Shown: in pieces, positions 15,843-31,049 of the stretch
Position numbering within the stretch: position 1 is the first letter of the stretch
Layout of the letters: each line of letters opens with the position of its first letter
Translations under genes and position numbers: made by a program
The notes under the pieces: generated by a model
What the model was told of the DNA's origin: nothing
Seen by the model: only the letters and a program-made list of their open reading frames with translations
Databases searched by the model: none
Source of the DNA: Collinsella sp. zg1085
Lineage (GTDB): Bacteria > Actinomycetota > Coriobacteriia > Coriobacteriales > Coriobacteriaceae
Direction of reading: 5' to 3'
Assembly: GCF_018889955.1 (NCBI RefSeq)
Contig: NZ_CP076545.1
Span: 682,001 to 746,000, forward strand
Length of the DNA stretch: 64,000 nucleotides

Positions 15843-16015
15843 GCGCAAATAAGTTACATCTGTTGTTTTGGCAAAAATGACGAAAAAGTACTCTCTATAA
15901 CCCAGCGGGTCAAAAATTTATCAGCAAAAGTGCAGGTAGATGAGGTATACGTAAAGTTACAATTGTCTCTTTATGCCAAATTAGTCAAAAATGACAGTTT
16001 ATTGCGTCAAATTAG
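15843..16015. other. Island boundary region, no gene recognised
   Basis: AT-rich sequence with several near-repeats of GTCAAAAATgACA and CAAATTAGTCA, between the host DUF2207 gene and the first island remnant. The left attachment site could be here, but I found no convincing partner repeat at the right-hand end. Confidence 0.35.
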
Positions 16016-16135
16016 TCAGTTTTGCCAAATCGACAGGTGTTCATTTTCGTTTGGGAGCAGAAACAAATTGCAGCATATGTTTCTAACCTCGACAAGCTCA
16101 TCATCCTTCGTTGGCGTAATCTCGATATACTCTAA
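16016..16135 (+). pseudogene. 3' remnant of a type I restriction specificity gene (hsdS)
   Basis: A 39-codon open stretch ending in TAA at 16133 reads EQKQIAAYVSNLDKLI. This matches the conserved HsdS C-terminal helix motif (EQxKIAxxLSxLDxLI). The rest of the gene and the hsdR and hsdM genes are absent, and the upstream codons (before FVWEQ) no longer look like HsdS. I read it as a leftover of a lost restriction locus; recognition rests on one motif. Confidence 0.5.
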
Positions 16136-16191
16136 AAAACAAGCAATCTAAGCCTGTGTACTCTAAACTGCATGAATTAGAAGATGGTTTA

Positions 16192-16326
16192 ATGGCGGTT
16201 CGGTATGCTGAGTTTAACGAAAAGTATAATCAGCGTGATATTTCTGCAAGACAAAAAATGAGAGAGCTTGTTGACTCCGACGCTAATAAGGTAACTAAGG
16301 TGTTCAGTACGCTTTTTAAGGGGTGA
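16192..16326 (+). pseudogene. Short conserved-looking fragment, probably C-terminus of a lost gene
   Basis: 44 codons from ATG 16192 (MAVRYAEFNEKYNQRD), open further upstream to a stop near 16119 without a start. No ribosome-binding site is evident. The highly charged helix (ISARQKMRELVDSDANKVTK) looks coding and ends 5 bp before the next reading frame, suggesting it was the first gene of the cassette that follows. Family not recognised. Confidence 0.4.
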
Positions 16327-16331
16327 TGATT

Positions 16332-16750
16332 ATGAGAGCGTATCCACAGGATTATTTGAATGATGTGGTGGAAAATCAGGGAAAACTCTTTGACTTCGTT
16401 GCTCAAAATTTTCCGAGGAAAGACACCGAGGATTTTATTAAGACTTATATGCAAAGCAAAACAAGAAAAAGCATCGATGAAGCACAAGCTTATGTCAATA
16501 CCATGAGTGCTATAGAGTTGTGGGCTACTTTATCAAAACAGAAAATTATGTTTTGAAGCCTGGTAAACCTCTTGCTGGTTTTATGCCTGATTGGATTGGT
16601 GAGTTTTATGCGTATTATCAGTGGTACTACAATATTTCGAGTTCGGAGGTACTGAAAAGAGTACCGCTTGATTTTTTGAAGAAGGCATATCACGGCTTGC
16701 ACGACTTGGAACTTGATTTAGCGGTGCAAAAGGTTGGAGATGAGCGATGA
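16332..16750 (+). pseudogene. Frameshifted cassette gene preceding NADAR, function unknown
   Basis: Two overlapping frames make one protein. The first runs from ATG 16332 (MRAYPQDYLNDVVENQGKL) to TGG at 16521-16523. The second resumes one base out of phase (GYFIKTENYVLKPGKPLAG) and ends at 16750. One G appears lost in the TGGG run at 16521-16524. The joined product is about 138 aa, rich in aromatic residues (WIGEFYAYYQWYYN). Its stop overlaps the NADAR start (ATGA), so the two were translated together. I recall similar proteins beside ADP-ribose-related genes in Firmicutes but cannot assign a function. Confidence 0.6.
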
Positions 16751-17148
16751 GTATAATATGCTTTCACAATCCAAATGAAGAAAATGGTTATTTAAGCAAT
16801 TGGTATTTATCACCTTTTACAGTAGACAAAAAGAGCTTTTCATCAATGGAACAATTTATGATGTATCGCAAGGCGATTTGCTTTGACGATGAGGCGGTAG
16901 CAACAAATATACTTGCAATTGATGATGTTGCGGAAATCAAAGCACTTGGAAGACAAGTATCAAATTATGATGAGCATATTTGGAATGGTATTAGGCAGAT
17001 TGTCGTTTATGAAGGGCTTTTGGCAAAATTCTCACAGAATGAGGATTTGAAAGATAAGCTTAAGTCCACTGGAGAAGCAGTATTAGCAGAATGTGCGGTT
17101 AAAGACTTAATTTGGGGTGTTGGATTATATAGCCCCGTTCTCTCCTAA
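16747..17148 (+). CDS. NADAR-family protein, apparently C-terminally shortened
   Basis: 133 aa. It matches the NADAR (YbiA/DUF1768) fold: an N-terminal FSNxxxSPF-like segment (YLSNWYLSPF), SSMEQFMMYRKAICF, IKALGRQVSNYDEHIW, VYEGLLAKFSQN and DLIWGVGL. NADAR proteins remove ADP-ribose from modified guanine and can act as antitoxins to DarT-like enzymes. The usual C-terminal block with a conserved Trp and GxNxLG is missing: the protein ends ten residues after IWGVG, so activity is uncertain. Start overlaps the previous stop. No ADP-ribosyltransferase gene is seen nearby. Confidence 0.75.
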   Translation: MSIICFHNPNEENGYLSNWYLSPFTVDKKSFSSMEQFMMYRKAICFDDEAVATNILAIDDVAEIKALGRQVSNYDEHIWNGIRQIVVYEGLLAKFSQNEDLKDKLKSTGEAVLAECAVKDLIWGVGLYSPVLS

Positions 17149-17163
17149 TATAAGGAGGAACTA

Positions 17164-17601
17164 ATGCTGTATACCTATGAGTTTGAGGTTATAAATCGAG
17201 ACGGTATGTTTGTATCAATGCCCTTTGGACTAGACGGAGGAACGCAAGGAACTTCTTTGACTGATGCCATCAAAATGTCAGCAGACTGGTTATTTACTAA
17301 AGCAGTCTCTGAGCTTGAGTTTGGGCGCGAGCTCCCTCAATGTGGCTCGCTTGGGAATGTTCCTTGTGAGGGCGGCACGGTAATAGTGGTAGCAGTGAGT
17401 GCATCGATGCATGATGTTGAGAGCGTGAGCGCCGCAGAAGCCGCCAAGCGCTTAGGCGTGAGTACCGCGCGTGTAGCTCAGCTTTGCCAAGCAGGCAGCC
17501 TTGTGTCATGGTCAATTGGTTCTACGCGCATGGTCTCAGTGGCTAGTATTGAATATAGATTAGAACTTGCCCCTCAGGCAGGACGGCCAAAAGAAGACTA
17601 G
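17164..17601 (+). CDS. HicB-like/HTH DNA-binding protein, probable excisionase or integrase regulator
   Basis: 145 aa. Residues 1-60 resemble a HicB-type partial RNase H fold (YEFEVINRDGMFVSMP, TSLTDAIKMSADWL). Residues 88-135 form an HTH_17/MerR-like helix-turn-helix (VSAAEAAKRLGVSTARVAQLCQAG, then SWSIGSTRMV) as in excisionases. Strong AAGGAGG before ATG 17164. It lies 10 bp before the integrase gene, so it likely directs excision or regulates int. No HicA toxin is adjacent. Confidence 0.7.
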   Translation: MLYTYEFEVINRDGMFVSMPFGLDGGTQGTSLTDAIKMSADWLFTKAVSELEFGRELPQCGSLGNVPCEGGTVIVVAVSASMHDVESVSAAEAAKRLGVSTARVAQLCQAGSLVSWSIGSTRMVSVASIEYRLELAPQAGRPKED

Positions 17602-17611
17602 GGGCACGATT

Positions 17612-18700
17612 ATGGCCATCTACAAAACACCAAGCGGTAAATGGCGCGTACAGGTTGATTTGGGTGCTGGCTTAGACGGAAAGCGTAAGCGCAAAACGGG
17701 GACCTTTCCCACAAAGCGAGAAGCTCAAATGGCTGAGCATCATTGGGCAGAGCTTTCAAGAACCAATTCGCTTTCTAAGAACTCAATTACGCTGTTGGAG
17801 TTTACGCGAGAGGTGTATATACCTGCAAAGGAGCAAAAGTTAAGGTACTCAACCTTTAGAAGGTATCTTATTGACATCAATAAACGGATTTTGCCATTAC
17901 TTGGGAATAAGCGACTTGATGCAATTGGCCATTCGGACGTTCAAAAGCTGATTGACGGGTGCAAGAGCCATAAAGTTGCTGTTACAACACGTGCTACACT
18001 TCGCCAGATTTTCAACCTTGCAATTAATATGGGCTTTCTTGTTCAAAATGTTGCCGTGCAATCATACGATATGCCTAAAAACACCGTACACCCTGACGAG
18101 CATAACGGTGATTGGCTTACTACCTTCGATGAGCATTCAGCATTTCTCCAACAGATTGATAATGAGCTCTTTCAAACTAGGGCCTATCTTGGCCTTGGTC
18201 TTGGTTTGCGAAGGGGTGAGATATTTGGTCTTAACTGGGACGATATTGACTTCTCTAAAAAGCTTGTACATATTCAGAGAACATATATACGTGAGAGCGG
18301 CGGCTATGAGCTTATGAGCCCTAAAACATACGAGAGTGACCGATATATTCCGATGCATCCCGCGCTTTTTAGCTTTCTTATGGCGCTGTATGAAAAAAGG
18401 GCTCATCCAACAGGAGCAGTGGTTATTTCGCGTAAAGGCTTAAGAGCTTCGCCAATAAAGACTTCCGCCCGCTGGACTGCGTTTTTGAAGAGACACCCAG
18501 AAATGCCGACAGTCTCAATATTAAACATGCGTCATTCGTTTGCCACGTCGTGCCTTAATGCGGGCATTGATGTTACGAAGGTTTCAAAGATGTTAGGGCA
18601 TACCAACATTACAACAACGGTCAGGCGCTATATTCGCTTTAAGGCAGAAGATTTGGTAGTAGAGTTTGACCAGATAATGGGGCAAAAAGAGGAAGTTTAG
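17612..18700 (+). CDS. int: Tyrosine recombinase/phage integrase (left)
   Basis: 362 aa. The order is an N-terminal AP2-like arm-binding segment (YKTPSGKWRVQVDLG), a SAM-like core-binding domain (residues about 60-150) and the catalytic domain. Arg of LGLRRGEIFGL, Lys in the beta-hairpin, Arg of NMRHSF, His of LGHTN and nucleophile Tyr of RRYIRF are visible. Box II reads LNMRH where HxLRH is usual, so the first histidine is replaced by Leu. The start at ATG 17612 is chosen over an upstream frame inside the preceding gene. It probably mobilised the small cargo element to its left. Confidence 0.88.
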   Translation: MAIYKTPSGKWRVQVDLGAGLDGKRKRKTGTFPTKREAQMAEHHWAELSRTNSLSKNSITLLEFTREVYIPAKEQKLRYSTFRRYLIDINKRILPLLGNKRLDAIGHSDVQKLIDGCKSHKVAVTTRATLRQIFNLAINMGFLVQNVAVQSYDMPKNTVHPDEHNGDWLTTFDEHSAFLQQIDNELFQTRAYLGLGLGLRRGEIFGLNWDDIDFSKKLVHIQRTYIRESGGYELMSPKTYESDRYIPMHPALFSFLMALYEKRAHPTGAVVISRKGLRASPIKTSARWTAFLKRHPEMPTVSILNMRHSFATSCLNAGIDVTKVSKMLGHTNITTTVRRYIRFKAEDLVVEFDQIMGQKEEV

Positions 18701-18884
18701 GCGCGTGCCAAATCTGTGCCACAAAATGTGCCCACAAATTATAATGCCTGATAAAAGATGGTAAAGCTTTTAGGAAATTCATCGGCGAGAAATGCAGTCA
18801 ATTACTATATTTCAGCAGGTAGATGATAGTATTTTCAACAAAACAAGGTGGTAGGGATGTTGGATTACATATGCAGAGCCAACA
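18701..18884. other. Junction between left integrase and truncated prophage
   Basis: 184 bp without a gene, lying between the integrase stop and the end of the tail-chaperone frame. An attachment site often follows int, so attR of the small element may be here. The tape-measure gene expected next on the minus strand is absent, so this segment also contains a deletion or recombination breakpoint. Confidence 0.4.
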
Positions 18885-19277
18885 TTAGCCATCTTGTGCC
18901 ATCCCTAATATCTGGTCAATCTCAGCGCGAGCTTTAAGCGCGTTGCTGCGCCGCCGCTCTGCTTCTAAGCGTTGCGCGGGAGAGAGCAATGGTTTTGGTT
19001 GGGGCAGCGGGTGCTGCTTGGTGTTGCCCAACAAGTAAAATAACCTTTGCAAATGAAACTCGATTCTCCATAAAAGATACGAGCCTGTTTCCCACTCAAG
19101 GCTTGGGTCTTGTAGCTTTGCCACGCGCGATGTAGCAGGTAGTTGCTGCCATAAAATTGCCATGCGCTCAAGTTCTATGCCGTCGCCTGAAAGAGGGAGT
19201 GCGACGGTATAGAACTGTTGAAAATCAGCAATTACTTCGTCTCGGTGTTCTTCAAAACAGGAGACGAAGCCAAGGAG
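18885..19277 (-). CDS. Tail assembly chaperone gpT part (made by -1 frameshift from gpG)
   Basis: The frame after the slip reads LLGFVSCFEEHRDEVIADFQ and continues to LEAERRRSNALKARAEID, 130 aa; the middle part resembles DUF5361. It has no good start of its own; an internal ATG at 19163 would lose the conserved N-terminal part. It enters frame by a -1 shift on A-AAA-AAC at 19283-19277 inside gpG, giving a fused gpGT of about 211 aa. Such fusions help load the tail tube onto the tape measure. The downstream partner, the tape measure gene, is missing. Confidence 0.75.
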   Translation of the reverse strand, partial: LLGFVSCFEEHRDEVIADFQQFYTVALPLSGDGIELERMAILWQQLPATSRVAKLQDPSLEWETGSYLLWRIEFHLQRLFYLLGNTKQHPLPQPKPLLSPAQRLEAERRRSNALKARAEIDQILGMAQDG

Positions 19278-19519
19278 TTTTTTACACGCGCCGCCTCAAG
19301 AGCTGCATCATTTAGTTTGGCAAGCCCTGTAAAACCGCCTACGCGCTCAACATAGTCTTCGTCGTGACCCATGTAGATGCGCTCAACAGCTTCAAACAGC
19401 CCATCAGGGTGCTTCTCAGACAGTGCCAACTGCTTCATGGTCTTATAGCTTTTTAGCTCATCAGCATCGCAGTAGAACTTGCCCTCAATCCCCTCAACGG
19501 TAAAGCTAATCTTATCCAT
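19232..19519 (-). CDS. Tail assembly chaperone gpG-like
   Basis: 95 aa acidic protein directly after the tail tube gene, the classical gpG position. ATG at 19519 (MDKISFTVEGIEGKFY). The slippery heptamer AAAAAAC is in the correct register (codons AAA AAC) 14 codons before the stop. Normal termination gives gpG; -1 slippage gives gpGT. Assignment rests on position, size and the frameshift signal. Confidence 0.75.
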   Translation of the reverse strand: MDKISFTVEGIEGKFYCDADELKSYKTMKQLALSEKHPDGLFEAVERIYMGHDEDYVERVGGFTGLAKLNDAALEAARVKNSLASSPVLKNTETK

Positions 19520-19532
19520 GTAAACTCACCCC

Positions 19533-20123
19533 TTAGACGTTTGCGCGATCAGTCTCGGTGGACTCGATATACTCATAGCAAGTGTTGCCATGTTCATCGG
19601 GGACATATTTAATGGTGATAGCACGTGCTCCCAGCTCGCTTGCTGCCATAGTTAGGTCATCAAGCTCGCTTGACTGGCCATTAGGCACGACACGACGACA
19701 ACGCCGACCATTTTTAAGAACAAGATCAAGAGCATAGGAGCGCGTGGTTGCGCTGTTGGCATTATGCTTAACTGTAATAAGACCGTTTTCATCGGTTACA
19801 TTGTCATCGCCATACATAATCTTGAGCGTTTCAGCCTTAATTTCTGCAGGCGTAAACTGAGCCGACTCAACCAAACTGGTCTGCTCCTCAGCCATAAGGT
19901 CACCGTTCATGTCCTTAAGCTCTTCCGAGTCACCTTCACGCGTTTCGGTATACCCATCTTCGCTCAAAAACCCAAGCACGCTAAATGCTGCATCAAGCTT
20001 TGACCAGCAATCCGTTGGAAGTGGGGTGCCCACTGGTGCAGTAAAGATGTATCCGCCGCGAATACCTTTAATTGCGCTAACGTTTTCAGTGTTATTTGTT
20101 GTCGCTTTTTTATTTTTGGGCAT
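19533..20123 (-). CDS. Phage major tail (tube) protein
   Basis: 196 aa, minus strand, between the tail terminator and the tail assembly chaperone. It has the pattern of siphophage tube subunits (GGYIFTAPVGTPLPTD, LGFLSEDGYTETREGDSEELKDMNGD), in which a flexible N-terminus precedes a beta-sandwich. Subunits would stack as hexamers to form the non-contractile tail tube. Start ATG 20123 follows AAAGG. Confidence 0.78.
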   Translation of the reverse strand: MPKNKKATTNNTENVSAIKGIRGGYIFTAPVGTPLPTDCWSKLDAAFSVLGFLSEDGYTETREGDSEELKDMNGDLMAEEQTSLVESAQFTPAEIKAETLKIMYGDDNVTDENGLITVKHNANSATTRSYALDLVLKNGRRCRRVVPNGQSSELDDLTMAASELGARAITIKYVPDEHGNTCYEYIESTETDRANV

Positions 20124-20136
20124 GATATAAACCTTT

Positions 20137-20478
20137 CTACTTGCAAATTGTTATTTGAATTGATGTTTGATAGCGCTCTTGGCGCGATTCAGGGTCTGCC
20201 CATCGATAGGTGCTCCCAAGCTCTACACCAAAGACCACAGGCTCATCCATAAGGTCAAACACCACGTCTTCAACCTTGCTAATAAGCTCATAGGCACGCC
20301 GGCGTGAGTGTGCCCACGCCTGAATAGCAAAGCCAATGCGCCGCACAAAGCGTGTGCCAACAGCGCCTGTCTGCTCAACCAGAATAAACTCATCAGGGCG
20401 CTCGCGGGCAACTTCAAGCATCACGTTTACGCCTAGTGCCTGCTCTAAGTGCAGAGCAACCATACGCTCTAAATCCAT
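20137..20478 (-). CDS. Phage tail terminator/minor tail protein
   Basis: 113 aa, located between the HK97-gp10-like gene and the tail tube, where tail terminators sit. MDLERMVALHLEQALGV begins a helix, followed by a beta-rich region (FVRRIGFAIQAWAHSRRRAYELISKVEDVV) typical of the family. It caps the tail tube and joins it to the head. Its first codon meets the last codon of the upstream gene (20478). Assigned mainly by order. Confidence 0.6.
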   Translation of the reverse strand: MDLERMVALHLEQALGVNVMLEVARERPDEFILVEQTGAVGTRFVRRIGFAIQAWAHSRRRAYELISKVEDVVFDLMDEPVVFGVELGSTYRWADPESRQERYQTSIQITICK

Positions 20479-20783
20479 TATGAGCTGCCCTGAGAATGGA
20501 GCGCACGGAGGAGCCTGTTGTGCTTGCGCTCGCTATAGTGGGCATGCGGGCTTGCCGTAGACACACGATAGCCTCGAGCTAAACGACCCTTAACGGCGCG
20601 AGCAACATAGCCCTTACCTGTCTCATTTGGCGCTGGTGTAAATGTATCGTTACAGCTCTCCTCAATTGACTTGGCGGGTTGTGTGAGAAGCGCCTGAACA
20701 TCTTCTGAGCTCATAAGCTCGGCGTATCCTGCGCGGTCCCAGCGAAACCGCCCAAAGCTAATCTCGCATTTTGCTCTAGCCAT
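20478..20783 (-). CDS. HK97 gp10-like tail component
   Basis: 101 aa basic protein. It begins MARAKCEISFGRFRWDRAGYAELM and contains GKGYVARAVKGRLARGYRVSTASPHA, which resembles the gp10/minor tail family (small, basic, C-terminal region rich in His/Arg). It overlaps the upstream connector gene by 8 bp. Role: head-tail joining. Confidence 0.6.
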   Translation of the reverse strand: MARAKCEISFGRFRWDRAGYAELMSSEDVQALLTQPAKSIEESCNDTFTPAPNETGKGYVARAVKGRLARGYRVSTASPHAHYSERKHNRLLRALHSQGSS

Positions 20784-21123
20784 CTATATGCTCCACATCA
20801 ACGGTTAAATTCCAAGGACCTGGTACATTTGACTCGGTATAGCGGCGAGGAGACCCTATGACCCTACAAATTTGTCCTCTCACCTCTATTTGTGCGCCCT
20901 GCAAATCTGCTGTATAGGTTTTAGGGAAGCAAAGCGTATATGCGCGGCGAGAGCCTTGAGGGCGCGATGGGTCTAAGTCATCAGTGGGGCTAGGTGCTAC
21001 AACAACGTTTTCTACGTGCTCACGCTCAATCCGCTCAGACAAAATATCGCCTAGACGGTCACGCTGAACTACTGGATGGAGCACCACCACACGCTCACCT
21101 GCAATAAGAGAAGCTCCAAACAC
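20776..21123 (-). CDS. Phage head closure/head-tail joining protein
   Basis: 115 aa, beta-rich. VVLHPVVQRDRLGDILSER and the C-terminal RYTESNVPGPWNLTVDVE suit the small barrel-fold stoppers that close the portal after packaging. It follows the connector gene with no gap and precedes the gp10-like gene. Family call by position and general pattern. Confidence 0.55.
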   Translation of the reverse strand: MFGASLIAGERVVVLHPVVQRDRLGDILSERIEREHVENVVVAPSPTDDLDPSRPQGSRRAYTLCFPKTYTADLQGAQIEVRGQICRVIGSPRRYTESNVPGPWNLTVDVEHIDG

Positions 21124-21528
21124 TTATGCCTCGTCTCGTTCATAGGGGGTAAGAACGTTTAAGCGCTGTCCTACAAGACCCAATCGTTTGAGATCGGATT
21201 TGCCTAAATACAGCTCGCCTAGCCCTGCCCCATAACTTACACTCGCTGAGTAGCCGCCGGCTGCCTGTGTAAACTGGGTAGCCCCTGCAATAGAGATAGG
21301 AGCACTTAGGACACGGTTGGCAAGCATGCATGCAACTGAGGTAGCCGAGCGGTCAAAAGATGGGTGAGCTCCAGCTGTATACTCATCTCCATAAAAGTCC
21401 TCATAGGCATTTATAAGAACTGCGCTCGCATCACCTAAAAGCGCTTCTGCACGCGCTACATCTGTAGGCGCGCCAAAACGAAGGCTATACTCATCAATTG
21501 ATGCAAAACTTGCCAACATATCCGGCAC
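21124..21528 (-). CDS. Phage head-tail connector (gp6/gp15-like)
   Basis: 134 aa helical protein immediately after the major capsid gene. The N-terminus (MLASFASIDEYSLRFG) and short helices (ARAEALLGDASAVLIN) are characteristic of gp6/gp15-like adaptors that dock under the portal ring. ATG 21528; 3 bp after the capsid stop. Confidence 0.7.
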   Translation of the reverse strand: MPDMLASFASIDEYSLRFGAPTDVARAEALLGDASAVLINAYEDFYGDEYTAGAHPSFDRSATSVACMLANRVLSAPISIAGATQFTQAAGGYSASVSYGAGLGELYLGKSDLKRLGLVGQRLNVLTPYERDEA

Positions 21529-21531
21529 CCC

Positions 21532-22428
21532 TTAGGAAATGGTGCCGTTTTCAAGTCGGACAAATTCTGACGCGCTGCGGATAACAAAGCCAATTTCAAG
21601 CTCAATGCGCACCGCAAACATGTTGCGCTGGAAAAGGTTGAGCTGAACCGTCTTTGAACCATCCTTCACACTTAAGGATGCTTGGTCTGCAATGGCTATA
21701 TTGATGTCTTGAACAATGCCATAGCGTGCGCCACTCCAATCACCGCCAAAGCCTACAACCTCGACAGATTTTGAAGTAACTGCAGGCTTGTAAGCATGAC
21801 GTGAGAAGTGCGCAGGAATTGAAAGCACTGAGTTTGGAGCGCCTTCAACAGATGCATTACTAATAAAGAGTGGGCGGTTATTTGAGTCTTTTGCTTTCAA
21901 AAGCACCGTGCGAGCTGCTGGAGAAAGCACCCAGTGGTTAAGGTCTGCCTCAGCTTTGCTAACTGTACCTATTGCGTCCACAAACGCGTCATAGGTTTTT
22001 ACCGAGACATCGAGCGCAGGGGCTTGAGCGAGCGTATCAAAGCTCTCACCTGGGGCATCTTGAAAACCAAAGACCGTCTGGTCAAACACCTTAGCAATAC
22101 TCATAGGCAAACGCCCAACGAGTGCCTCATAAAGCGCTTCGTTGTTTGCCCTGAACTGGTTTGAGAACGGCTCAATCAAAGCAACGGTATAGCCCTTCAT
22201 AGTTTTGGTTGTCAGCGTATGCTTGCCAACCGGTTTTTCTTCGGTCTCAGCTGTCCAGGCAGCAACTGGGTCGCCGGTCACCACAGGAATGGTAAGACCG
22301 TTTCCCGGCAGGGTGATGCGCTCCGCGAGCTTCATCACAACTGAAGACTCTTGTGCCTTGGCCCAAATCTCAGAAGAGACTGATTGAGGCAAGGTCAAGC
22401 TTTTTGTGTTCATAGAATCAAGTGCCAT
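21532..22428 (-). CDS. Major capsid protein (HK97 fold)
   Basis: 298 aa, without a visible N-terminal delta domain, consistent with the separate scaffold gene upstream. The HK97-type pattern is clear: SVSSEIWAKAQESSVVMKLA, then ITLPGNGLTIPVVTGDPVAAWTAETEEKP, and the helix containing LPMSIAKVFDQTVFG. It would form the icosahedral head. Start ATG 22428, 14 bp after the scaffold stop. Confidence 0.88.
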   Translation of the reverse strand: MALDSMNTKSLTLPQSVSSEIWAKAQESSVVMKLAERITLPGNGLTIPVVTGDPVAAWTAETEEKPVGKHTLTTKTMKGYTVALIEPFSNQFRANNEALYEALVGRLPMSIAKVFDQTVFGFQDAPGESFDTLAQAPALDVSVKTYDAFVDAIGTVSKAEADLNHWVLSPAARTVLLKAKDSNNRPLFISNASVEGAPNSVLSIPAHFSRHAYKPAVTSKSVEVVGFGGDWSGARYGIVQDINIAIADQASLSVKDGSKTVQLNLFQRNMFAVRIELEIGFVIRSASEFVRLENGTIS

Positions 22429-22442
22429 AAGATATGTCCTTT

Positions 22443-22904
22443 CTACTTCATAGCGTCATTCATAAACTTAGAAAAATCTGTGGCAGGAGATGAGTTGGTA
22501 CTTGCCCTGTCAAAGGTGCCTGGCGCGTCGAGTTTGGCGGCTGGCTTTTGCTTAAACGCTTGGAGCATCTCATCAGCCCATGCCTCCATAGCCTCGCGCG
22601 TATCGCCCACCAAAAGCTGTGCTGGTACATGCTTTGCTTTTGCAACCTCATCAGCAAGTGTGCGTCTTGCTTCAGCGCGCTCTTTTGCACTCAAGCGCTC
22701 TTCAAGCGCGGCAATCCTCTCAGCATCGGTTTTGCTTGCAGCACGAGTGCTCTCAAGCTCAGCCTGAGCATCCTTGTTTGCCTTTGCGCGGGCTTCCCAT
22801 TTACGAGCGTTTGCCTTTGCCTCTTCATACAATGCTTTGTAGTTGGGCTCTTTGTCAGTACCCTTTTGCTCTTTGTCCACCTGATTGTCACCAAGCTGTT
22901 CCAT
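22443..22904 (-). CDS. Phage capsid scaffolding protein (gp20-like)
   Basis: 153 aa, strongly predicted coiled coil between residues 20 and 90 (YKALYEEAKANARKWEARAK, ALEERLSAKERAEARR), with a low-complexity C-terminus ending in FSKFMNDAMK. It lies directly upstream of the capsid gene, the usual place of scaffold proteins that template shell assembly and are removed before packaging. Confidence 0.78.
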   Translation of the reverse strand: MEQLGDNQVDKEQKGTDKEPNYKALYEEAKANARKWEARAKANKDAQAELESTRAASKTDAERIAALEERLSAKERAEARRTLADEVAKAKHVPAQLLVGDTREAMEAWADEMLQAFKQKPAAKLDAPGTFDRASTNSSPATDFSKFMNDAMK

Positions 22905-23311
22905 CTCTTACCAATCCTTTCTCACGCTGTGCAGCGTGCGCCACGCTACTTTGCAGTGCGTAGCTCATAGAGGTAGTTACCTGCCGTGCGGCAGCGTATG
23001 GTGGGCATTGTCTGGTATGCGTGAGATTTAGCGCTCAAAGGTGTATTTAGGCGTGTTAAGAACGGCATATAACTCATTTTAAGCAAGATACACAGTGGCC
23101 TTGTTGCATTTATGTAAAACGCCTGAAGCAAGGAGTAGCTCCGTATCTCTGTCTATAAGCTTAGAAATTAAGGTACACTTACTTATGGAGTACGCCCAGA
23201 CCTACGAATCGGGAAACGGCTCCATTTATTTTTTGAAATGAAGTATTTATGACCAGCTTTTTCAAAATATGTATAAGGTTTGAATTAGCGTGTGCTATGG
23301 TATCTTTCAAT
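22905..23311. other. Gap between MuF-toxin locus and scaffold; no immunity gene found
   Basis: About 400 bp. An immunity gene for the toxin domain would be expected near here, but no convincing frame exists on either strand. A plus-strand 18-codon frame (MEYAQTYESGNGSIYFLK, 23185-23241) coincides with a stem ATGGAG/CTCCAT followed by a T-rich run, so it may be a terminator or an N-terminal gene remnant. Confidence 0.4.
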
Positions 23312-23367
23312 AAAGAAGGGGTTTCCCCGCCGACCGTTTTCACGGGGGGGTCTAACCCCTTCTTTTT
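23312..23367. terminator. Bidirectional terminator at the end of the toxin frame
   Basis: AAAGAAGGGGTT pairs with AACCCCTTCTTT across a GC-rich inner region (CCCCG/CGGGG), with T-runs on both outer sides. It overlaps the toxin stop codon at 23352-23354. Confidence 0.75.
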
Positions 23368-23884
23368 ACTCTTAAAATATATTCGTCTTTTAAGATTAGA
23401 ACTTGGTTAAACTGCTTTTTATCTTCTCCATAGCGCCAGTGTATATATCGCCTTGTCGATTGAATAATCTCGTCTCGGCTCCATTTTCCCTCAGACGGAG
23501 AAACCTCAAACTCTCGTATATCAAGAATGAGGTTATCAGCTTGCTCGGCTGCTTCTTCAAATTGATGGTAGAGCGTTTGTTTGCCTTCACCTATTGGTTG
23601 CTTTATCTCCCAAGCTGCCCCATTAATCCACAAGTCAGAGGTTGATTGATGCTCATCTGAACGGGTTGTTCTAAAAACTGATGGGATACCGTGCTTTTGA
23701 CTCAAAGCCTCAACTACTTCTAACTCCTTCGGCTTAGGTTTTGCCCCCTTTTCTAGTGTTTTTTCTGCAGCTTCTCCCGTCAAAAACCACTTCGCATCAC
23801 GGGTTTCTATCTCTTGTGAGATGCGCTTAGAGCTAAAGTGCTCAAATGCCTTACTTGGGGTTCCACCATGGCGTTTAATATAGG
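23352..23884 (-). CDS. CdiA/PD-(D/E)XK-like toxin domain, C-terminal part of a MuF polymorphic toxin
   Basis: The frame is open from the A6 run at 23890-23885 to 23352. From a TTG at 23783 it codes for 143 aa, but there is no ribosome-binding site there, and upstream codons in the same frame are clearly coding (RHGGTPSKAFEHFSSKRISQ). The domain shows TSDLWINGAAWEIKQP, an Asp followed by ExK, the core of PD-(D/E)XK nucleases of CdiA-CT type, with flanking Arg/Lys-rich strands. It most likely attacks tRNA or DNA. Joined to MuF by a -1 shift it gives a protein of about 415 aa. Confidence 0.65.
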
Positions 23885-24598
23885 TTTTTTCTCTTCAGAT
23901 GATAGGCGGTCCCATTCTTCTCGTATTGCAACACGTCCACCAAGCGCAGAAACGCAGCTCTGATAGCGTTCATACATTGCGTCTGGGTCATAGCCCTCAA
24001 TTTGCATATGCCCATAGTTTTGTACAACACGGCAATCACAGCCCTTATGGGCATGGCTTGCCGCCTCTTCGGTGTTATAGGTATAGCCAAATGAAGAGAG
24101 CATAAGACAAAATCCACAGGTTTCACGACCTGCAGGGACACGAGCAAACTTAGGTTTTTTAGGGTCAATACGCGCATTGTAGGCCGCGCATCTATTTGCC
24201 GCTAGGCGACACTCTGTGTTGATACGGGCTACGCAAGTTTTTTTGAACGTGTCGGTATCACCTGTTTTAACCACACTATTAAGTGATGCGCGTACAGCGC
24301 CAGCAAGCGCATCAGGGTTTCTTCTTGCATCAGGGACAGCTCGAAACATATCATGGACGCCTTGGAGTTCGCGCACGCTATCGTAGGTTTCAGCAGCGCG
24401 AGCGGCGGCGAGACTAGTGCTGCCCTCGCAAATCGTTTCAAGTGCCTCAATTGAAGCTTCTCGAAGCGCGGGGACATCTCTCCCGTCCCACTCAGCAATC
24501 ACTTCAGTAAGGGAGCGCTCAGCCATACGTTCCGAGCGTGAAGAGATATAGTTGATTTCCTTGTTGAGCTTATCTAGTGGCTTACGCGAGATTTCCAT
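23807..24598 (-). CDS. Phage minor head protein, MuF/SPP1 gp7-like
   Basis: 263 aa as read. N-terminal helices (NKEINYISSRSERMAERSLTEV) lead into the MuF domain with the Cys/His cluster RVPAGRETCGFCLMLSSFGYTY then SHAHKGCDCRVV, a hallmark of the family. MuF proteins sit inside the capsid near the portal and can be injected. After codon 238 (EEKK) the reading becomes PILNAMVEP and stops; shifting back one base at the A6 run gives continuous similarity-like sequence into the toxin domain. It overlaps the portal gene by 17 bp. Confidence 0.85.
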   Translation of the reverse strand: MEISRKPLDKLNKEINYISSRSERMAERSLTEVIAEWDGRDVPALREASIEALETICEGSTSLAAARAAETYDSVRELQGVHDMFRAVPDARRNPDALAGAVRASLNSVVKTGDTDTFKKTCVARINTECRLAANRCAAYNARIDPKKPKFARVPAGRETCGFCLMLSSFGYTYNTEEAASHAHKGCDCRVVQNYGHMQIEGYDPDAMYERYQSCVSALGGRVAIREEWDRLSSEEKKPILNAMVEPQVRHLSTLALSASHKR

Positions 24599-26000
24599 GA
24601 GGCTCGTCTTTCTCGCTCAACAAAGACATAAAGGTTTTGCGGGCTTGAGCTTTTTTAGCATCAGAGTTGATACGCTGCATTTGCTCATCGGTGTAGTCCA
24701 GTAATTCCAGCATGACATCAGAGTCTGCCAACTTAGGAATAGCTTGAATCTGCTTGAGTACCGCGTCACTTTGCGAGACCGTTGAGGGGTAGGCAGGTGA
24801 CATAAAACGCGGATTAATGTTTGCGCCACGGTCGCGCTCGAGGGCAAAGTTAGTTCCTCTAGCCACAGCAAGTGCCATATAAGCCACGTTGCGAAGGGCG
24901 CGACCATTATCACGGTTGAGGTTTTTTGCCTCAATTACGAGCGGCTCTAAGCTAGCCGCTATAGCATCTGCTGAGCTTGGATTATCGCTTGACACACCAA
25001 AAAAGGAGACTGGAACATTAGTTACGCTTGACATCTGCGATGCAAGCGAGCGGAAATACTCATTAAGAGGTGTCATTTGTAGCTGTGCGCCTTGCCAGAT
25101 AGTCGGCGAATCACCATCAATATCTTTTGTAATCTCGTTAATCGCGCCCATAGAGGCATCGTATCGGTTGTTGTCATTAATCACGCGCTTATAGGTGCCT
25201 AAAAGCCACATCTGGGGAAGCGCTGAGGACTCTGCGGCAACTTCCATGCGGGCACGCTGCCGAATAGCGTCGTCTGTGATGCTCATAACTGAGCGTGTAA
25301 TGCGACTCATACCAAAGGGACGCTCAAGGGTGGCGCTGTAGGCCATAGGCTCAATCAAAGGCCGTCCCATGCTGTGGTAGCGATACTCTGCCACCCATGT
25401 ATTTTCACACCGGCGCAAAACAATGACAGCATCTTGTGTAAATATATTAACGACAGAGGGTGTATGCGTGCGTTGTATAGGAGAAAACTTAGACTCTGCC
25501 ACTACAAGCCCTGCGGCAATGCATTTTTGTGCGTCATCCCAAAGGGCGGCAGCAGCAGTTGCTGGGTATGCGCTTATAACAGGCTCACCTGCTGCGCCAT
25601 AGCTTACTGTCCAAAAGCCGCAGCAATGCTTTAGCTCGCAGATAAGGTTTTTTCGATAGAGAGAATCAAGCCCGTTGGCAATATAGATATGTCGTAAAAG
25701 CTCTGTTGTCTCATCATCATCGGTTGTAAAACCATTGAGTACTGAGCGGTCAGCTAGAGCATGTACGGCCTTTTTTGGCCAATCAATACGAGGGTCAATC
25801 TTTTTAGCTAATGATGAGGGCATAGCAATGCCTAAATCTTTGACCTGCACATGCCCGAGATAGTATTTTTCGCGCAATATATTGCGCTCTTTGCAGTTTT
25901 GCCACACGCTCATGAGCTGCTTTACTATCAAAGCGTCTGCTGGCTCTAAACCATCGGCACAAGCAATATCTCCTGCTAGGTTAATCGAAAAAATACCCAT
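24582..26000 (-). CDS. Phage portal protein
   Basis: 472 aa, between large terminase and MuF as in SPP1/HK97-like modules. YYLGHVQVKDLGIAMP near residue 45, KRVINDNNRYDASMGAINEITKD and the stem region QSDAVLKQIQAIPKLADSDVMLELLDYT are typical of the SPP1-type portal family. The dodecameric ring forms the DNA entry pore. Its ATG at 26000 shares a base with the terminase stop. Confidence 0.87.
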   Translation of the reverse strand: MGIFSINLAGDIACADGLEPADALIVKQLMSVWQNCKERNILREKYYLGHVQVKDLGIAMPSSLAKKIDPRIDWPKKAVHALADRSVLNGFTTDDDETTELLRHIYIANGLDSLYRKNLICELKHCCGFWTVSYGAAGEPVISAYPATAAAALWDDAQKCIAAGLVVAESKFSPIQRTHTPSVVNIFTQDAVIVLRRCENTWVAEYRYHSMGRPLIEPMAYSATLERPFGMSRITRSVMSITDDAIRQRARMEVAAESSALPQMWLLGTYKRVINDNNRYDASMGAINEITKDIDGDSPTIWQGAQLQMTPLNEYFRSLASQMSSVTNVPVSFFGVSSDNPSSADAIAASLEPLVIEAKNLNRDNGRALRNVAYMALAVARGTNFALERDRGANINPRFMSPAYPSTVSQSDAVLKQIQAIPKLADSDVMLELLDYTDEQMQRINSDAKKAQARKTFMSLLSEKDEPHGNLA

Positions 26001-27451
26001 TAAAAACTTGCCCCCTGTTCCCGCTCGGGATCTCGTTTGGTTGTACGAATGGCATATAGTGCGAGCGCTGCTGACTCAATTGGAGCTGAGATGCTATCTT
26101 CGCCGTCTCCAAAGCTCCATCCGCCAAAATCTCCCACTTTTCGCCGAATTGATTTAGTTGCAGACACATCAAGCGCTGGTGATGCAATGTGTTTTATGGT
26201 CTGCGCGTTCACCTCATCGCACAGCATGGCGGCAGCCGATTGCACAATAGAAGAGCTGCCCTGAATAATTGCTTTTTTAGGGAATGAAGCGTCATGCAGG
26301 CGCTGAATAAGTGCTCCCGACCCTGATTTTCCATCGATACACACCGCGGCAATTCGGTCTTGGTTGCGCGTAAGCATCTCTGAGATGCCAACCGTGCCAC
26401 CATAGGCGGATTGAACGTCGTAGAGCTCAATATATGCCTCACACCCGCGCTTTGCACGTGCCCAAGACACAGCAACTGTTTGTCCATCTGGGCTAAATTT
26501 GACGCCAAAAGCGATCTTGCCGTCTCGTATAGGCTCATCCACACAGCAACGTTCCCAGTTAGGACCACTCAAGGCGAGGTTGGCAGCATTGGTGCTCGCC
26601 GACCACCAACCCAAGCGCTCACGGGCAAATACATCTGAGGGCATTTGAGAGGCTTCGGTTTCAACAGCGGCATAATTGAGCTGTGTCCCAAGAGACGGGT
26701 TGTATTCATACCAGCGTGTTTTATCGTGTATATCTCCAATTTCTGGTGCCGCCCACTCAATCCAAGCGGCATCTGTTGTACCTTCGTGAGCACGCTTGTG
26801 AAGGTCCTTAAAGATAGTGCCAATATTTTCGGGTGCAGGAGGTGTGCCTAGATAGATGGTCTGCGGGTTATTCATGGGACCTGCTGATATAGCTGGCAAT
26901 GATGCCGCTTGTTGGCGTGCAGTTAGGTCCTGTGCCTCATCGTAGATAAGTACGTCATAGGTGCGCCCGCGCGCTAGCGAGTCGGTGCGTGTCGTAAAGC
27001 GGATAAGCCCGCCGCCCAAATCGTCTGAGTCTTGCTTTTTCTTCAACCGGATAGATTGTTGACCATTTGTTTTGCGCACGCAATCAAGCAAGCTATGTAG
27101 CTCGGGTAAATTCTCATCTTCAAAAGGAGCAGCAAGCTCTTCAAACATCTGCATAGCTGTATCGCCGTGCTGACAGGTAAAGAGTATTTTTTCTCCGGCA
27201 AGCGCACCGTAGAAACAGCGTGCTCGCACGACCCAGCTTTTACCATTTTGCCGAGGGATTGAGATACCAAGCGTGCGCAGCAAATATTTATCTGCATCAT
27301 CTCGCGCTAGCATGGCATGCAAGAGATAGGGCTGCCATGGAAGGGGTTTTCCAAAATAGGCGCCTGCAAGCTCAACCGCCATAGCGCCATCACCATCTAA
27401 GTGCTCAGGGATATTAGCAACAAATGTTGGGGTTAGGCGCGGGCTTAACAT
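26000..27451 (-). CDS. terL: Terminase large subunit
   Basis: 483 aa. The ATPase half has an atypical Walker A (SIPRQNGKSWVV) and Walker B DVLIYDEAQDL, followed by the coupling motif (IYLGTPP). The RNase H-like nuclease half contains FGVKFSPDGQTVAVS, CIDGKSGSG and a late Asp. It drives packaging and cuts concatemers. It overlaps terS by 7 bp, so the two are translationally coupled. Confidence 0.9.
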   Translation of the reverse strand: MLSPRLTPTFVANIPEHLDGDGAMAVELAGAYFGKPLPWQPYLLHAMLARDDADKYLLRTLGISIPRQNGKSWVVRARCFYGALAGEKILFTCQHGDTAMQMFEELAAPFEDENLPELHSLLDCVRKTNGQQSIRLKKKQDSDDLGGGLIRFTTRTDSLARGRTYDVLIYDEAQDLTARQQAASLPAISAGPMNNPQTIYLGTPPAPENIGTIFKDLHKRAHEGTTDAAWIEWAAPEIGDIHDKTRWYEYNPSLGTQLNYAAVETEASQMPSDVFARERLGWWSASTNAANLALSGPNWERCCVDEPIRDGKIAFGVKFSPDGQTVAVSWARAKRGCEAYIELYDVQSAYGGTVGISEMLTRNQDRIAAVCIDGKSGSGALIQRLHDASFPKKAIIQGSSSIVQSAAAMLCDEVNAQTIKHIASPALDVSATKSIRRKVGDFGGWSFGDGEDSISAPIESAALALYAIRTTKRDPEREQGASF

Positions 27452-27891
27452 GCGCGGCGAGCCTTTTGCTTTTGGGCTCGGTCGCGCAATACGAGCTGCA
27501 ATACCTGTGCGCTATCGGTTTTTTGGGCTTTGGTTGTATGTATCATATCAACGCGAGCCTTAGGCGATATGTTTAAAAGCTCGCTTAATGCTCGAATCTC
27601 GGTAGTTGCCTCTTTAAGTACGGCAAGGGCTGGGTGCTTTCGGTGAAGCGGCATTGGGTTGCCTGAAATATCCTCTAAGTCCTTATAGCCAATTTGCTCG
27701 AGCACCTCTAAGGTGTCCTCACCGCGCACAAGCGCAGCTCTTGCTTCTATGGCGACATGGTGCCAAAAGCACAGAAGGCGAAGTGCTGGCACATCTTGTT
27801 TGGTAAACGTATTGCCCTTAGGAACAAGGGCTTTCCAGATGAGTTTTTCGCATTCATCGGCTCGTACGTCTTTTGGCATGGAAATACCCAT
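27445..27891 (-). CDS. terS: Terminase small subunit, P27-like
   Basis: 148 aa. ALVPKGNTFTKQDVPALRLLCFWHHVA and NPMPLHRKHPALAVLKEATTEIRALSELLNISPKARV match the P27 small terminase pattern. It recognises the packaging site. ATG 27891 (MGISMPK) follows AAGGAG. It lies after an AT-rich gap containing the probable cos region. Confidence 0.83.
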   Translation of the reverse strand: MGISMPKDVRADECEKLIWKALVPKGNTFTKQDVPALRLLCFWHHVAIEARAALVRGEDTLEVLEQIGYKDLEDISGNPMPLHRKHPALAVLKEATTEIRALSELLNISPKARVDMIHTTKAQKTDSAQVLQLVLRDRAQKQKARRAC

Positions 27892-28131
27892 AGCAACTCC
27901 TTTCTGATAGGGGAGATACTATTCGGCACGTGAGATAGTGATAATTTGTTGAAAAATGTCGGGGGGAAATTAGCCATAATGCCGCGGTTTCTCGACTGAC
28001 CCCCTAGGAGGGGTAACATCCCCTCTAAAAGAATATTAATTATTATTTTTATTTATAAAATATCAATTAATTACATAATTATGTATTATTTTATAAGTAT
28101 TTATTCGTATAATTATTAATAAATTAAGTAA
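27892..28131. other. AT-rich segment and possible cos region between HNH and terS
   Basis: 28020-28140 is almost pure A/T with many TTAATTA/ATAATTA strings, far from the island average. Next to it lies a G/C block (GGGGGG near 27961 and CCCCTAGGAGGGG near 28011-28023). In HNH-terS-terL phages the cos site usually lies here. No gene. Confidence 0.5.
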
Positions 28132-28428
28132 TTAAAATAGTTCAGTGCGCTTAATTACAAGTTGAGCTTTATCTCCAGGCATGCGGGCGCCTTTGCGTCT
28201 GTTGCAGATGCGATGAGCAGGCGCTGCATTAGCATAGTCATAGGGTTCACCACCACGAGCTATTGGAATGATATGGTCTAGCTCAAAACTATAGGGATGA
28301 CCTGCAGGTAAATCATAATCAATAGGGGCACCGCATAAATGGCAAGCCCTTCCCTCGGCCCTGAGGCGTGCCCTCATCTTCTGGCGGACACTACCGTTTT
28401 TTGTCCATATGCTCCGGGGCTTAACCAT
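28132..28428 (-). CDS. HNH endonuclease
   Basis: 98 aa from ATG 28428, which has AAAGGAAG upstream; an earlier frame start at 28461 has none. A zinc knuckle CHLC, the ELDHIIPIARGG catalytic loop and APAHRICNRRKG form a complete HNH domain. In this position HNH proteins assist terminase at cos, so it is probably a packaging accessory rather than a homing enzyme. Confidence 0.88.
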   Translation of the reverse strand: MVKPRSIWTKNGSVRQKMRARLRAEGRACHLCGAPIDYDLPAGHPYSFELDHIIPIARGGEPYDYANAAPAHRICNRRKGARMPGDKAQLVIKRTELF

Positions 28429-28546
28429 GGGGCTTCCTTTCTTGCAATAGGGGGGGTACATGTTCTATATACACCCAGGCAGCTGTAGGTATTAAGGAAA
28501 GGATAGCGTCGCCCTGAGAATTGTTTATTTTTCAGTGAATATAGGG

Positions 28547-28637
28547 TACAATGGCATCGACGGCAGCCCACGTTGTGGATAGCTGGGCAGCGCCGTTGTT
28601 TGTTTGAGAAAACCGCCGCTCTAACGGCGGTTTTTCT
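28547..28637 (+). ncRNA. Putative antisense RNA of a type I toxin-antitoxin module (module 1)
   Basis: TACAAT at 28547-28552 predicts a start near 28559. The RNA would be about 80 nt with a hairpin (CAGCCCAC/GTGG..GCTG, 28564-28585) and end at a perfect terminator. It converges on the small hydrophobic gene transcribed from the other strand and overlaps its 3' end. It also shares GCTGGGCAGCGCC (28582-28594) with the toxin leader (28773-28785 on the other strand). No -35 of quality. Confidence 0.45.
28609..28635. terminator. Bidirectional terminator shared by module 1 RNAs
   Basis: AAAACCGCCG-CTCTAA-CGGCGGTTTTT. T-runs occur on both strands, and the stop codon of the small minus-strand gene lies in the loop. 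Confidence 0.8.
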
Positions 28638-28746
28638 TTACCTTACAACGGGACTGACCCCGCGCTTTGGTATGAAGTCTAATTAAAGCTGTTGCTAGTC
28701 CAACTAACGCTGTAGCTAGCTTGAGCAATTCAATCAATAACTCCAT
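28621..28746 (-). CDS. Small hydrophobic peptide, candidate type I toxin (module 1)
   Basis: 41 aa (MELLIELLKLATALVGLATA and a basic tail). AGGAGG lies 8 nt before ATG 28746, an excellent site. One hydrophobic helix of about 22 residues precedes a Lys/Arg-rich C-terminus, the layout of Fst/holin-like toxins. The TAG stop lies in the terminator loop. A TACAAT at 28835-28830 on the minus strand could start a leader of about 75 nt. Too short for most gene callers. Could instead be a phage membrane peptide. Confidence 0.55.
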   Translation of the reverse strand: MELLIELLKLATALVGLATALIRLHTKARGQSRCKVKKNRR

Positions 28747-29121
28747 GAGCATCACCTCCTCTCTAAAGAGCAGGCGCTGCCCAGCACGTGGTTACCTACT
28801 TAAAGGTTGCTGCGTCTTTGCCGTTAATTATTGTAGCTCAAACCATAGCTGAAGCCCTGGTATTTACTCCCTCAATATATATAATTACTTCTTATCAATC
28901 TGGGTATCTGAACATGAAAAGCATGTAGTGCCTGAGCTGGAATAACTTATTGCTTACTACTTTAGTGCCCTAATCTATTGACACTCTATTGGCATAGCAT
29001 TTGAGCGCTTAGGCAACGAGTAAAAATCACTGCGTTTGCGCGCAAATAGACCAAGCGCAAAGCACGGTTACTTTTAATTGTGGGGTATATATGTTGCTCT
29101 ATATTCATATAGGAATTTTGC
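28747..29121. other. Leader/control gap between the two small-peptide modules
   Basis: No gene is seen. It holds the leader and promoter of module 1 (minus) and the upstream region of module 2 (plus). TTGACA at 28978-28983 has no good -10 at the right distance. TTTTAATTG and ATATAT runs lie before 29122. Confidence 0.4.
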
Positions 29122-29127
29122 TATAAT
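29119..29127 (+). promoter_or_regulatory. Extended -10 promoter of module 2
   Basis: TGCTATAAT is a perfect extended -10 (TGnTATAAT), about 38 nt before the small gene's start codon. No -35 is needed for such promoters. Confidence 0.65.
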
Positions 29128-29164
29128 AGTCTTGTCCACAGGATAAGAAAGGAGGTTGATTGAA

Positions 29165-29281
29165 TTGGACAGCTTGATTGAGTTCCTGAAGATGATTAGT
29201 GCAGCACTAGTTGCTATGGTCATTGAAAGGAGGTTCGGTTGGTTTCTCGATGACATACTAGGAACCAAAAAGCCCCGCTAG
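29165..29281 (+). CDS. Small hydrophobic peptide, candidate type I toxin (module 2)
   Basis: 38 aa from TTG 29165, 9 nt after AAAGGAGG. The N-terminal half (MDSLIEFLKMISAALVAM) matches the module 1 peptide in the pattern LIExLKxxxxALV. A charged tail (GTKKPR) follows. Its TAG stop lies in the loop of a hairpin AGCCCCG/CGGGGCT. The start codon is weak, as in many toxins held at low expression. Alternative: small phage membrane protein. Confidence 0.5.
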   Translation: MDSLIEFLKMISAALVAMVIERRFGWFLDDILGTKKPR

Positions 29282-29345
29282 CCTGAAAACGAACGGGGCT
29301 GAGCTCAAGGGAGGGCGGTTGACCGCCGCTCTTCCACTCATCGAT
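29266..29345 (-). ncRNA. Putative antisense RNA of module 2
   Basis: On the minus strand a hairpin GGCGGT-CA-ACCGCC is followed by AGCCCCG...CGGGGCT and TTTTT (29270-29266), a good terminator for an RNA of about 75 nt. AT-rich sequence around 29350-29360 could serve as -10. It overlaps the 3' end of the small gene, mirroring module 1. No transcript evidence. Confidence 0.4.
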
Positions 29346-29373
29346 ATATTACACCTAAATCAAGGAGGAACAC

Positions 29374-29472
29374 ATGATTAACCATGTAATCGACTTTTGT
29401 TTGATGGTACTTGCCGTTCTGGTGGTTCGTATTGGCTTTCGTATCTACGATGCTAGAAAGGGGCGCAAGTAA
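29374..29472 (+). CDS. Tiny single-pass membrane protein, unknown
   Basis: 32 aa (MINHVIDFCLMVLAVLVVRI then a basic end). AAGGAGG lies before ATG 29374. One hydrophobic helix is followed by RIYDARKGRK. It stops 3 bp before the next gene, so the two form a unit. Could be a holin-like or regulatory peptide. Confidence 0.6.
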   Translation: MINHVIDFCLMVLAVLVVRIGFRIYDARKGRK

Positions 29473-29475
29473 GAT

Positions 29476-29661
29476 ATGGCAATCTCAGATGCTCAAAAGC
29501 GTGCAACGCTTAAATACCTGAAGGATAAAACCAAACAGCTGGCTATTCGATTTTACCCGGCGGATATGGAGTTGTTCGAGTGGCTTGACGCTCAAGACAA
29601 CAAACAAGGCTATATCAAGCAACTCATACGTGAGGATATGGAGCGCAAGAAAAGAGACTAG
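29476..29661 (+). CDS. Small phage protein, unknown
   Basis: 61 aa, basic. MAISDAQKRATLKYLKDKTK then IRFYPADMELFEWLDAQDNK and GYIKQLIREDM. This combination is common in short proteins of phages and mobile elements and may be an RHH-like DNA binder, but I cannot prove that. Plus strand, opposite to the structural genes, coupled to the membrane peptide upstream. Confidence 0.7.
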   Translation: MAISDAQKRATLKYLKDKTKQLAIRFYPADMELFEWLDAQDNKQGYIKQLIREDMERKKRD

Positions 29662-29744
29662 AGCGCCTAGCATAGGTGGCCTAATAAGAGCGGGCAAGAG
29701 TGTGCAAACTCCTGCTCACTCTTGCGCGTTTTAGGTACTTGATG

Positions 29745-30059
29745 TTACTCCGTATCTGTATGTTCTGTTTCAAGTTCCAACTGGTCTATATAGTCCCTGA
29801 TAATCTTGTTCATGTTTGCTAAATCGTCGGTGCGTTTATAAGCGTGTGTATTCATAGATTCAAGCTCTTTAATTACGTGGTCTAGTACCTCATATTTTCT
29901 ATCGTCCGAAAAACGAACAGTACTATCACGTATATTTTTCGCTGCTTTTAAGAAGAGGTCAGACGTGCTATATATGCCGAAAAATCGAATCCTAATATCG
30001 AGCACCCCATTGTCAAGACTTTTTAGCCGCCTCATGAACTGGATTGTTGTTCTATCCAT
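29745..30059 (-). CDS. Hypothetical prophage protein
   Basis: 104 aa from ATG 30059 (MDRTTIQFMRRLKSLDN), which has CGGAG 8 nt upstream inside the end of the previous gene; a start at 30113 would overlap it. Helical, no recognisable domain. It ends in TDTE, exactly like the upstream neighbour. Confidence 0.6.
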   Translation of the reverse strand: MDRTTIQFMRRLKSLDNGVLDIRIRFFGIYSTSDLFLKAAKNIRDSTVRFSDDRKYEVLDHVIKELESMNTHAYKRTDDLANMNKIIRDYIDQLELETEHTDTE

Positions 30060-30063
30060 GCGT

Positions 30064-30501: not shown

Positions 30502-30512
30502 TTTATTTCTCC

Positions 30513-31025: not shown

Positions 31026-31049
31026 ATATAGCTCTCCTTAATAGTTGCT

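Follow-up and report, generated by a model that had tools for sequence, protein, structure and literature searches.

A decayed DUF3990-partner-NADAR cassette of the PDC-M42 type in Collinsella sp. zg1085

The stretch from 16016 to 17148 of the window (the whole 64,000-nucleotide stretch of Collinsella sp. zg1085 DNA that was analysed) is, judged by homology, a decayed copy of a three-gene cassette of the PDC-M42 type, in which gene A encodes a DUF3990 ADP-ribosyltransferase (ART), gene B a small partner protein and gene C a NADAR hydrolase. The A-B-C trio is already known as the phage-defence candidate PDC-M42 of PADLOC-DB, and the relic in the window is a new decayed case of that candidate kind. 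With good confidence we read the whole locus as what is left of an ART toxin-antitoxin cassette of this type that formerly lay within a Type I restriction-modification locus; the remnant itself is probably dead. The carrier is a gut-type bacterium with a broken ADP-ribosylation module, the toxin gene being nearly gone and the repair gene shortened beside a mobile integrase.

The remnant and its intact relative

Among the phage and plasmid records, the sole DNA match to 15850-18750 was MT837160.1 (hereafter L003), a contig of 8.4 kb from faeces that was deposited as phage. Its genes stand in one run in the order hsdM-hsdS-A-B-C-hsdS'-hsdR, where hsdS' is a second hsdS piece, and its A, B and C correspond to PDC-M42A, PDC-M42B and PDC-M42C in PADLOC-DB (E 1.5e-127, 1.3e-78 and 2.2e-87, respectively). 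The features of the window locus are the following.

16055..16135, + strand: C-terminal tail of HsdS, 26 residues and the stop (tblastn, shuffle test)
16144..16326, + strand, open frame 16156-16326: C-terminal 58 residues of the DUF3990 ART (gene A), catalytic domain deleted (tblastn to A of L003)
16332..16556, + strand: first part of partner gene B (PDC-M42B family), residues 1-64 before the frameshift (identity to the L003 partner, PDLC04642)
16526..16750, + strand: second part of partner gene B, residues 67-139, in the next frame (identity to the L003 partner)
16747..17148, + strand: NADAR gene C (PDC-M42C family), 133 codons, C-terminal block lost (Pfam, PADLOC-DB, ADP-ribose contacts)
17114..17131, + strand: left copy of an 18-bp direct repeat, putative att site in the NADAR gene (16/18 identical)
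17164..17601, + strand: helix-turn-helix (HTH) protein with a HicB-like N-terminal part, adjoining the integrase (family searches)
17612..18700, + strand: tyrosine integrase of a putative inserted element (Phage_integrase 2e-21; PHROG 1 6e-59)
18854..18871, + strand: right copy of the 18-bp direct repeat, about 150 bp past the integrase (repeat comparison)

The preliminary description had recognised four parts within 1.1 kb, namely an HsdS tail, a fragment left unnamed, a gene broken by a frameshift and a NADAR gene cut short, and homology confirmed all of them. The homologies of the A fragment, the two B halves and NADAR lie well above chance; the exception is the HsdS tail considered alone. 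This tail (EQKQIAAYVSNLDKLIILRWRNLDIL at 16055-16132, followed by a stop) is 42% identical to the HsdS C-terminal repeat of L003, with an E of 0.056 on its own (tblastn); in local comparison with two HsdS proteins it outscored all of 2000 shuffles each, and it gains weight because its position fits, hsdS lying immediately upstream in intact copies. The rest of hsdS, hsdM and hsdR are absent at the window locus, where the tail stands upstream only and no hsdR follows downstream, and EcoR124_C (HsdR) had no match anywhere in this genome. By the family searches made, the sole other restriction-like locus of the genome lies at about 1.34 Mb and consists of a separate N6 methylase (one N6_Mtase match) with three Methylase_S matches (G000:C1:1340806-1343383, L120-L123); over the methylase stretch compared, L120 gave no tblastn match to the L003 genes.

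The fragment that had been left unnamed is real and could be identified as the C-terminal end of a DUF3990 protein, with 16144-16317 aligning to residues 160-217 of L003 A (60% identity, E 2e-20, tblastn). Pfam places DUF3990 in its ART clan (PMC7955679), and by sequence DUF3990 has no PDB relative up to E 5. The invariant H, Y and Q of the family map upstream of the surviving 58-residue piece, and the full catalytic domain that a PDC-M42 gene A would need is missing in the window copy. No other DUF3990 (PF13151) was found in this genome.

Breaks in the NADAR gene and in gene B

Gene C overlaps gene B by ATGA at 16747-16750, as noted in the preliminary description, and its loss of the last NADAR block was likewise borne out. 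The match to Pfam NADAR (1.6e-37) covers profile positions 2-133 of 163, that to PDC-M42C covers residues 1-127 of 158 (E 1e-70, PADLOC-DB), and homology to L003 ends at 17127 (tblastn). The lost block, W-x-G-Q-N-L-L-G-x-x-L-M-x-V-R, is kept in full-length relatives, and a complete NADAR fold with this C-terminal block is wanting in the window past residue 127.

The NADAR homology ends inside the left copy of a direct repeat, GGGGTGTTGGATTATATA at 17114-17131, which returns as GGGATGTTGGATTACATA at 18854-18871 (16/18 identical), and the two copies flank the HTH gene and the tyrosine integrase. For this 18-bp repeat, which was picked after looking, the pattern was found twice in the window (up to 3 mismatches) vs 0.06 expected, and 2 of 500 Markov sequences gave an equal repeat score, as did 1 of at most 300 randomly drawn pairs of stretches from the window (those less than 500 bases apart being skipped). 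Because the homology ends in a repeat that flanks the HTH-integrase pair, a small integrative element probably inserted into the NADAR gene and cut it. It is rather unlikely that the gene was instead shortened by an ordinary deletion, independent of the integrase element: past the right copy the sequence is NADAR-like over a few bases only, with no clear resumption of homology, and the phage genes of another remnant start at 18885, as a deletion would allow, but the homology stops in the left copy, a second copy lies just past the integrase, and such a repeat is unlikely to arise by chance.

With regard to the putative element itself, five relatives of the 17612-18700 integrase had no cassette genes in the flanks examined. 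Viral contigs held only integrases distant from that of the window (23-27% identity), and a pattern scan of them gave nothing for the NADAR-integrase junction. The HTH gene at 17164 was considered as a specific partner of the cassette and dropped, since relatives of it occur in 74 of 197 genomes of the order; at 11 loci with relatives of the 17164-17601 HTH gene, no close relative of the window integrase was found within about 1.5 kb. The remnant starting at 18885 is a prophage remnant (18885-32081) with capsid, portal, terminase and SSB genes running right to left and with a second tyrosine integrase at 31050-32081, which adjoins the suf operon. Nothing tail-like was found in it besides the tail-assembly gene at 18885-19163, where it ends. 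No flanking repeat of the second integrase or of the whole insert was found, the best matches being of 8-12 bases, and the sufC loci of 29 relatives had no gluQ or DUF2207 within about 1.5 kb.

Gene B is broken as well. Its first half (16332-16523) is 75% identical to residues 2-65 of the L003 partner and its second half (16526-16744) 74% identical to residues 67-139 (tblastn), and window B matches PDLC04642 (PDC-M42B) of PADLOC with E 7e-31. One base must be missing, because there is one residue fewer than expected together with a change of frame; the DNA alignment over the cassette stretch, which pairs 822 window bases with 823, agrees with the single lost base proposed earlier. The open reading frame that PDC-M42 requires of its PDC-M42B gene is thus absent from the window, the family match notwithstanding. 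We consider it unlikely that the frameshift is a sequencing or assembly error and B really intact: the two halves are equally conserved, B has no further stop and the frameshift sits in a short G run, all of which would suit an error, but the genome was assembled as one contig of 1.72 Mb and both neighbouring genes, A and C, have suffered large losses, which sequencing errors could not produce. The dN/dS of the comparison with L003 was saturated at synonymous sites. B has no Pfam family, and its structure model is all-helical and poor (mean pLDDT 54), with no Foldseek match below E 1; no sequence relative of B was found in the PDB below E 0.4, and protein scans of the viral contigs gave none either.

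What the shortened NADAR could still do was judged from its contact residues and from a model. By alignment, the window protein has the same residue at 12 of the 13 positions through which the solved NADAR 8bau contacts ADP-ribose, the thirteenth being D86 replaced by E76; the contact residues are those given for the Phytophthora NADAR in PMC11543638, and at all 13 mapped positions the chain letter is the one given there. The AlphaFold2 model of the shortened protein is good to about residue 105 and poor over 118-133, which include the active-site residues D120 and W123, and it still matches 8bau (Foldseek E 2e-7) and YbiA. We conclude that the truncated NADAR probably does nothing useful now. 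That it is a still-working orphan eraser, giving immunity to incoming ARTs and kept past the loss of its own toxin, seems distinctly improbable. Its frame is open across 133 codons, its contacts are almost all conserved, its predicted structure resembles 8bau, and B and C are intact without A in two related loci (L008 and L014); against this, the C-terminal block of full-length relatives is gone, the model is poor precisely where D120 and W123 lie, and the ATGA translational coupling would be disturbed because the preceding gene B is broken. That NADAR is a household N-glycosidase of the riboflavin pathway with coincidental neighbours is very improbable: TIGR02464 (ribofla_fusion) does match it (E 2e-33), but the PDC-M42C match is far better, and NADAR or a NADAR remnant adjoins B in 13 of the 14 strongly related B loci.

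Related loci and the family of gene B

The 14 strongly related loci comprise L005-L016, which came from a B scan with one genome per species, together with L003 and a Treponema plasmid locus (L004). A lies directly upstream of B in 12 of them and is missing in L008 and L014, C or a C remnant lies downstream of B in all except L004, and in six (L003, L005 of Bifidobacterium merycicum, L007, L008, L011 and L013) the cassette stands between hsdS and hsdR; in L009, L010, L012 and L016, the few neighbours scanned were ordinary genes. The preliminary description had proposed that B and NADAR could belong to an ADP-ribosylation system related to defence, and had advised a search of intact copies for neighbouring ART genes. 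The DUF3990 genes upstream are such neighbours, and intact loci devoid of ADP-ribosylation or restriction genes, named there as the contrary outcome, are not what these relatives offered. The proposal is thus supported by the PDC-M42A, B and C family matches and by context. The link that it drew to DarT-type toxins would stand by analogy alone, the ART of the intact relative being PF13151 DUF3990 and no DarT.

Two of these loci deserve a separate remark. L006 (7273-8878), from Bifidobacterium catenulatum subsp. kashiwanohense, parallels the window: hsdS survives only as a tail, A and B are intact, and the NADAR lacks its end. In L013 (6393-7995), two different DUF3990 cassettes stand in tandem within one Type I restriction locus, in the order of a DUF3990-like gene, an 86-residue gene and DUF3791, followed by PDC-M42.

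Among 15 relatives (L003-L016 and L092), A is lost or damaged in 6 and B is intact in all, a count with a bias, since a search that starts from B favours loci where B is intact, A is the longer gene, and most loci are metagenome bins. A is absent in L008 and L014 and frameshifted in L016 and L092; in L015 its C-terminal part is short with the catalytic domain kept, and in L013 it lacks 28 internal residues. Gene C is missing from L004, damaged in L006 and L013, and incomplete in L092. Loss of the toxin before the antitoxin is the pattern expected of a toxin-antitoxin pair.

A profile search for B in 395 genomes of the window's order found relatives in 69, the window's own genome counted. We examined 32 B-family loci (L018-L022 and L092-L118), all of them weak matches except L092, mostly with E from 1e-10 to 1e-4. 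A DUF3990-type ORF lies on the strand of B in 29 of these 32 vs 0 of 49 control loci of the same order, and an XRE-type HTH is part of the same ORF as B in 22 of the 32, any match to that HTH profile being found in 2 of the 49 controls. The Pfam families HTH_3 and DUF3990 were confirmed for L019, L020 and L022, and the public annotation of the Collinsella aerofaciens B locus likewise gives a DUF3990 protein followed by a helix-turn-helix regulator. The independent number of B-family loci is lower than 32, because about ten of them share a 232-codon open frame in one genus and look like orthologues. NADAR was present in only 1 of the 32 loci and is absent in L004; we therefore regard it as an accessory of the A-B pair, and not as part of a fixed trio.

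B as a candidate antitoxin and the systems compared

In the classical toxin-antitoxin layout, a toxin-type gene precedes that of a protein which can bear a repressor domain. This layout of two adjacent genes, one of toxin type and one of antitoxin type, is found in the relatives of the cassette, as the counts for A and for HTH-fused B indicate, and for this reason we read B as probably the antitoxin and NADAR as an added eraser.

In an intact cassette, the DUF3990 protein, with its ART clan membership and its invariant H, Y and Q, would ADP-ribosylate an essential target, be it a nucleic acid or something else; B, small and helical, would bind and hold this toxin as its antitoxin, and NADAR would take ADP-ribose off modified guanine bases. 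There would thus be two locks on one toxin, and the trio would act once the first-line restriction system or the antitoxin had been overcome. In this genome the hsd genes of the locus have gone bar the hsdS tail, the ART has shrunk to its last 58 residues, B carries a frameshift, and NADAR ends at the left copy of the repeat flanking the HTH-integrase pair; the loss of the toxin removes the need for B and C, and their decay would be explained by this.

The locus shares with PDC-M42 (PADLOC, PDLC04640-04643) all three gene families, the A-B-C order and, if the HsdS tail is taken as a sign of it, perhaps the embedding in a defence locus, but A is down to 58 residues, B is frameshifted and C lacks its end, and PDC-M42 is itself only a candidate. 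PDC candidates were obtained by looking for genes that lie within immune systems (cited in PMC12255303; for descriptions, PMC12988326 and PMC10855318). No mention of the name PDC-M42 was found in the literature searched, and no published test of anti-phage activity was found under DUF3990, PDC-M (among the matches listed) or PDC-M42.

DarT1-NADAR and YarT-YbiA are toxin-antitoxin pairs in which ART toxins are reversed by NADAR proteins (PMC11543638, PMC11125620). DarTG1 (DarT1-NADAR) resembles the present cassette in that its ART toxin is accompanied by a NADAR hydrolase able to undo the ADP-ribosylation of guanine; unlike it, the window-type ART is DUF3990 and no DarT, a separate gene B stands between ART and NADAR, and most relatives of the A-B pair are without NADAR. 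YarT-YbiA of myxobacteria likewise pairs an H-Y-type ART toxin with a NADAR/YbiA antitoxin, but the ART is a different one, and the portions of the source consulted describe no B partner. In enteropathogenic Escherichia coli (EPEC), DarTG2 lies between hsdS and hsdR in an island that defends against phage (PMC12255303). This RRDM island with RptR is similar in having an ART toxin-antitoxin pair inserted between hsdS and hsdR; it differs in the macrodomain antitoxin of DarTG2 and in being intact, with action against phages demonstrated. Nearest to the A-B pair itself are the DUF3990 and HTH regulator pairs of Collinsella and its relatives, in which an ART gene precedes that of a B-domain protein, whereas in 22 of 32 loci B there forms one ORF with an XRE-type HTH, and NADAR is absent in 31 of 32.

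Neither the reading of B as an antitoxin nor its relatives fused to an HTH were met in the literature under the names DUF3990, PDC-M (among the matches listed) or PDC-M42. We tentatively put forward, as quite possible, a wider proposal: DUF3990-B would be a widespread ART toxin-antitoxin pair and B a new kind of antitoxin domain, in most cases joined to an XRE-type HTH by which the operon is autorepressed; PDC-M42 would be a derived form, in which the HTH was lost and NADAR gained as a second enzymatic lock, under the control of a Type I restriction operon; and decay would proceed toxin-first, leaving orphan B or NADAR as possible immunity.

The relic itself is ordinary genome decay. More useful is the observation that B, a protein without a Pfam family, belongs to a group of proteins found together with DUF3990 ARTs across many genomes of this order and frequently joined to a DNA-binding domain, which makes it a good antitoxin candidate; the B family would thereby offer a concrete way to test the workings of PDC-M42 and of other DUF3990 candidates.
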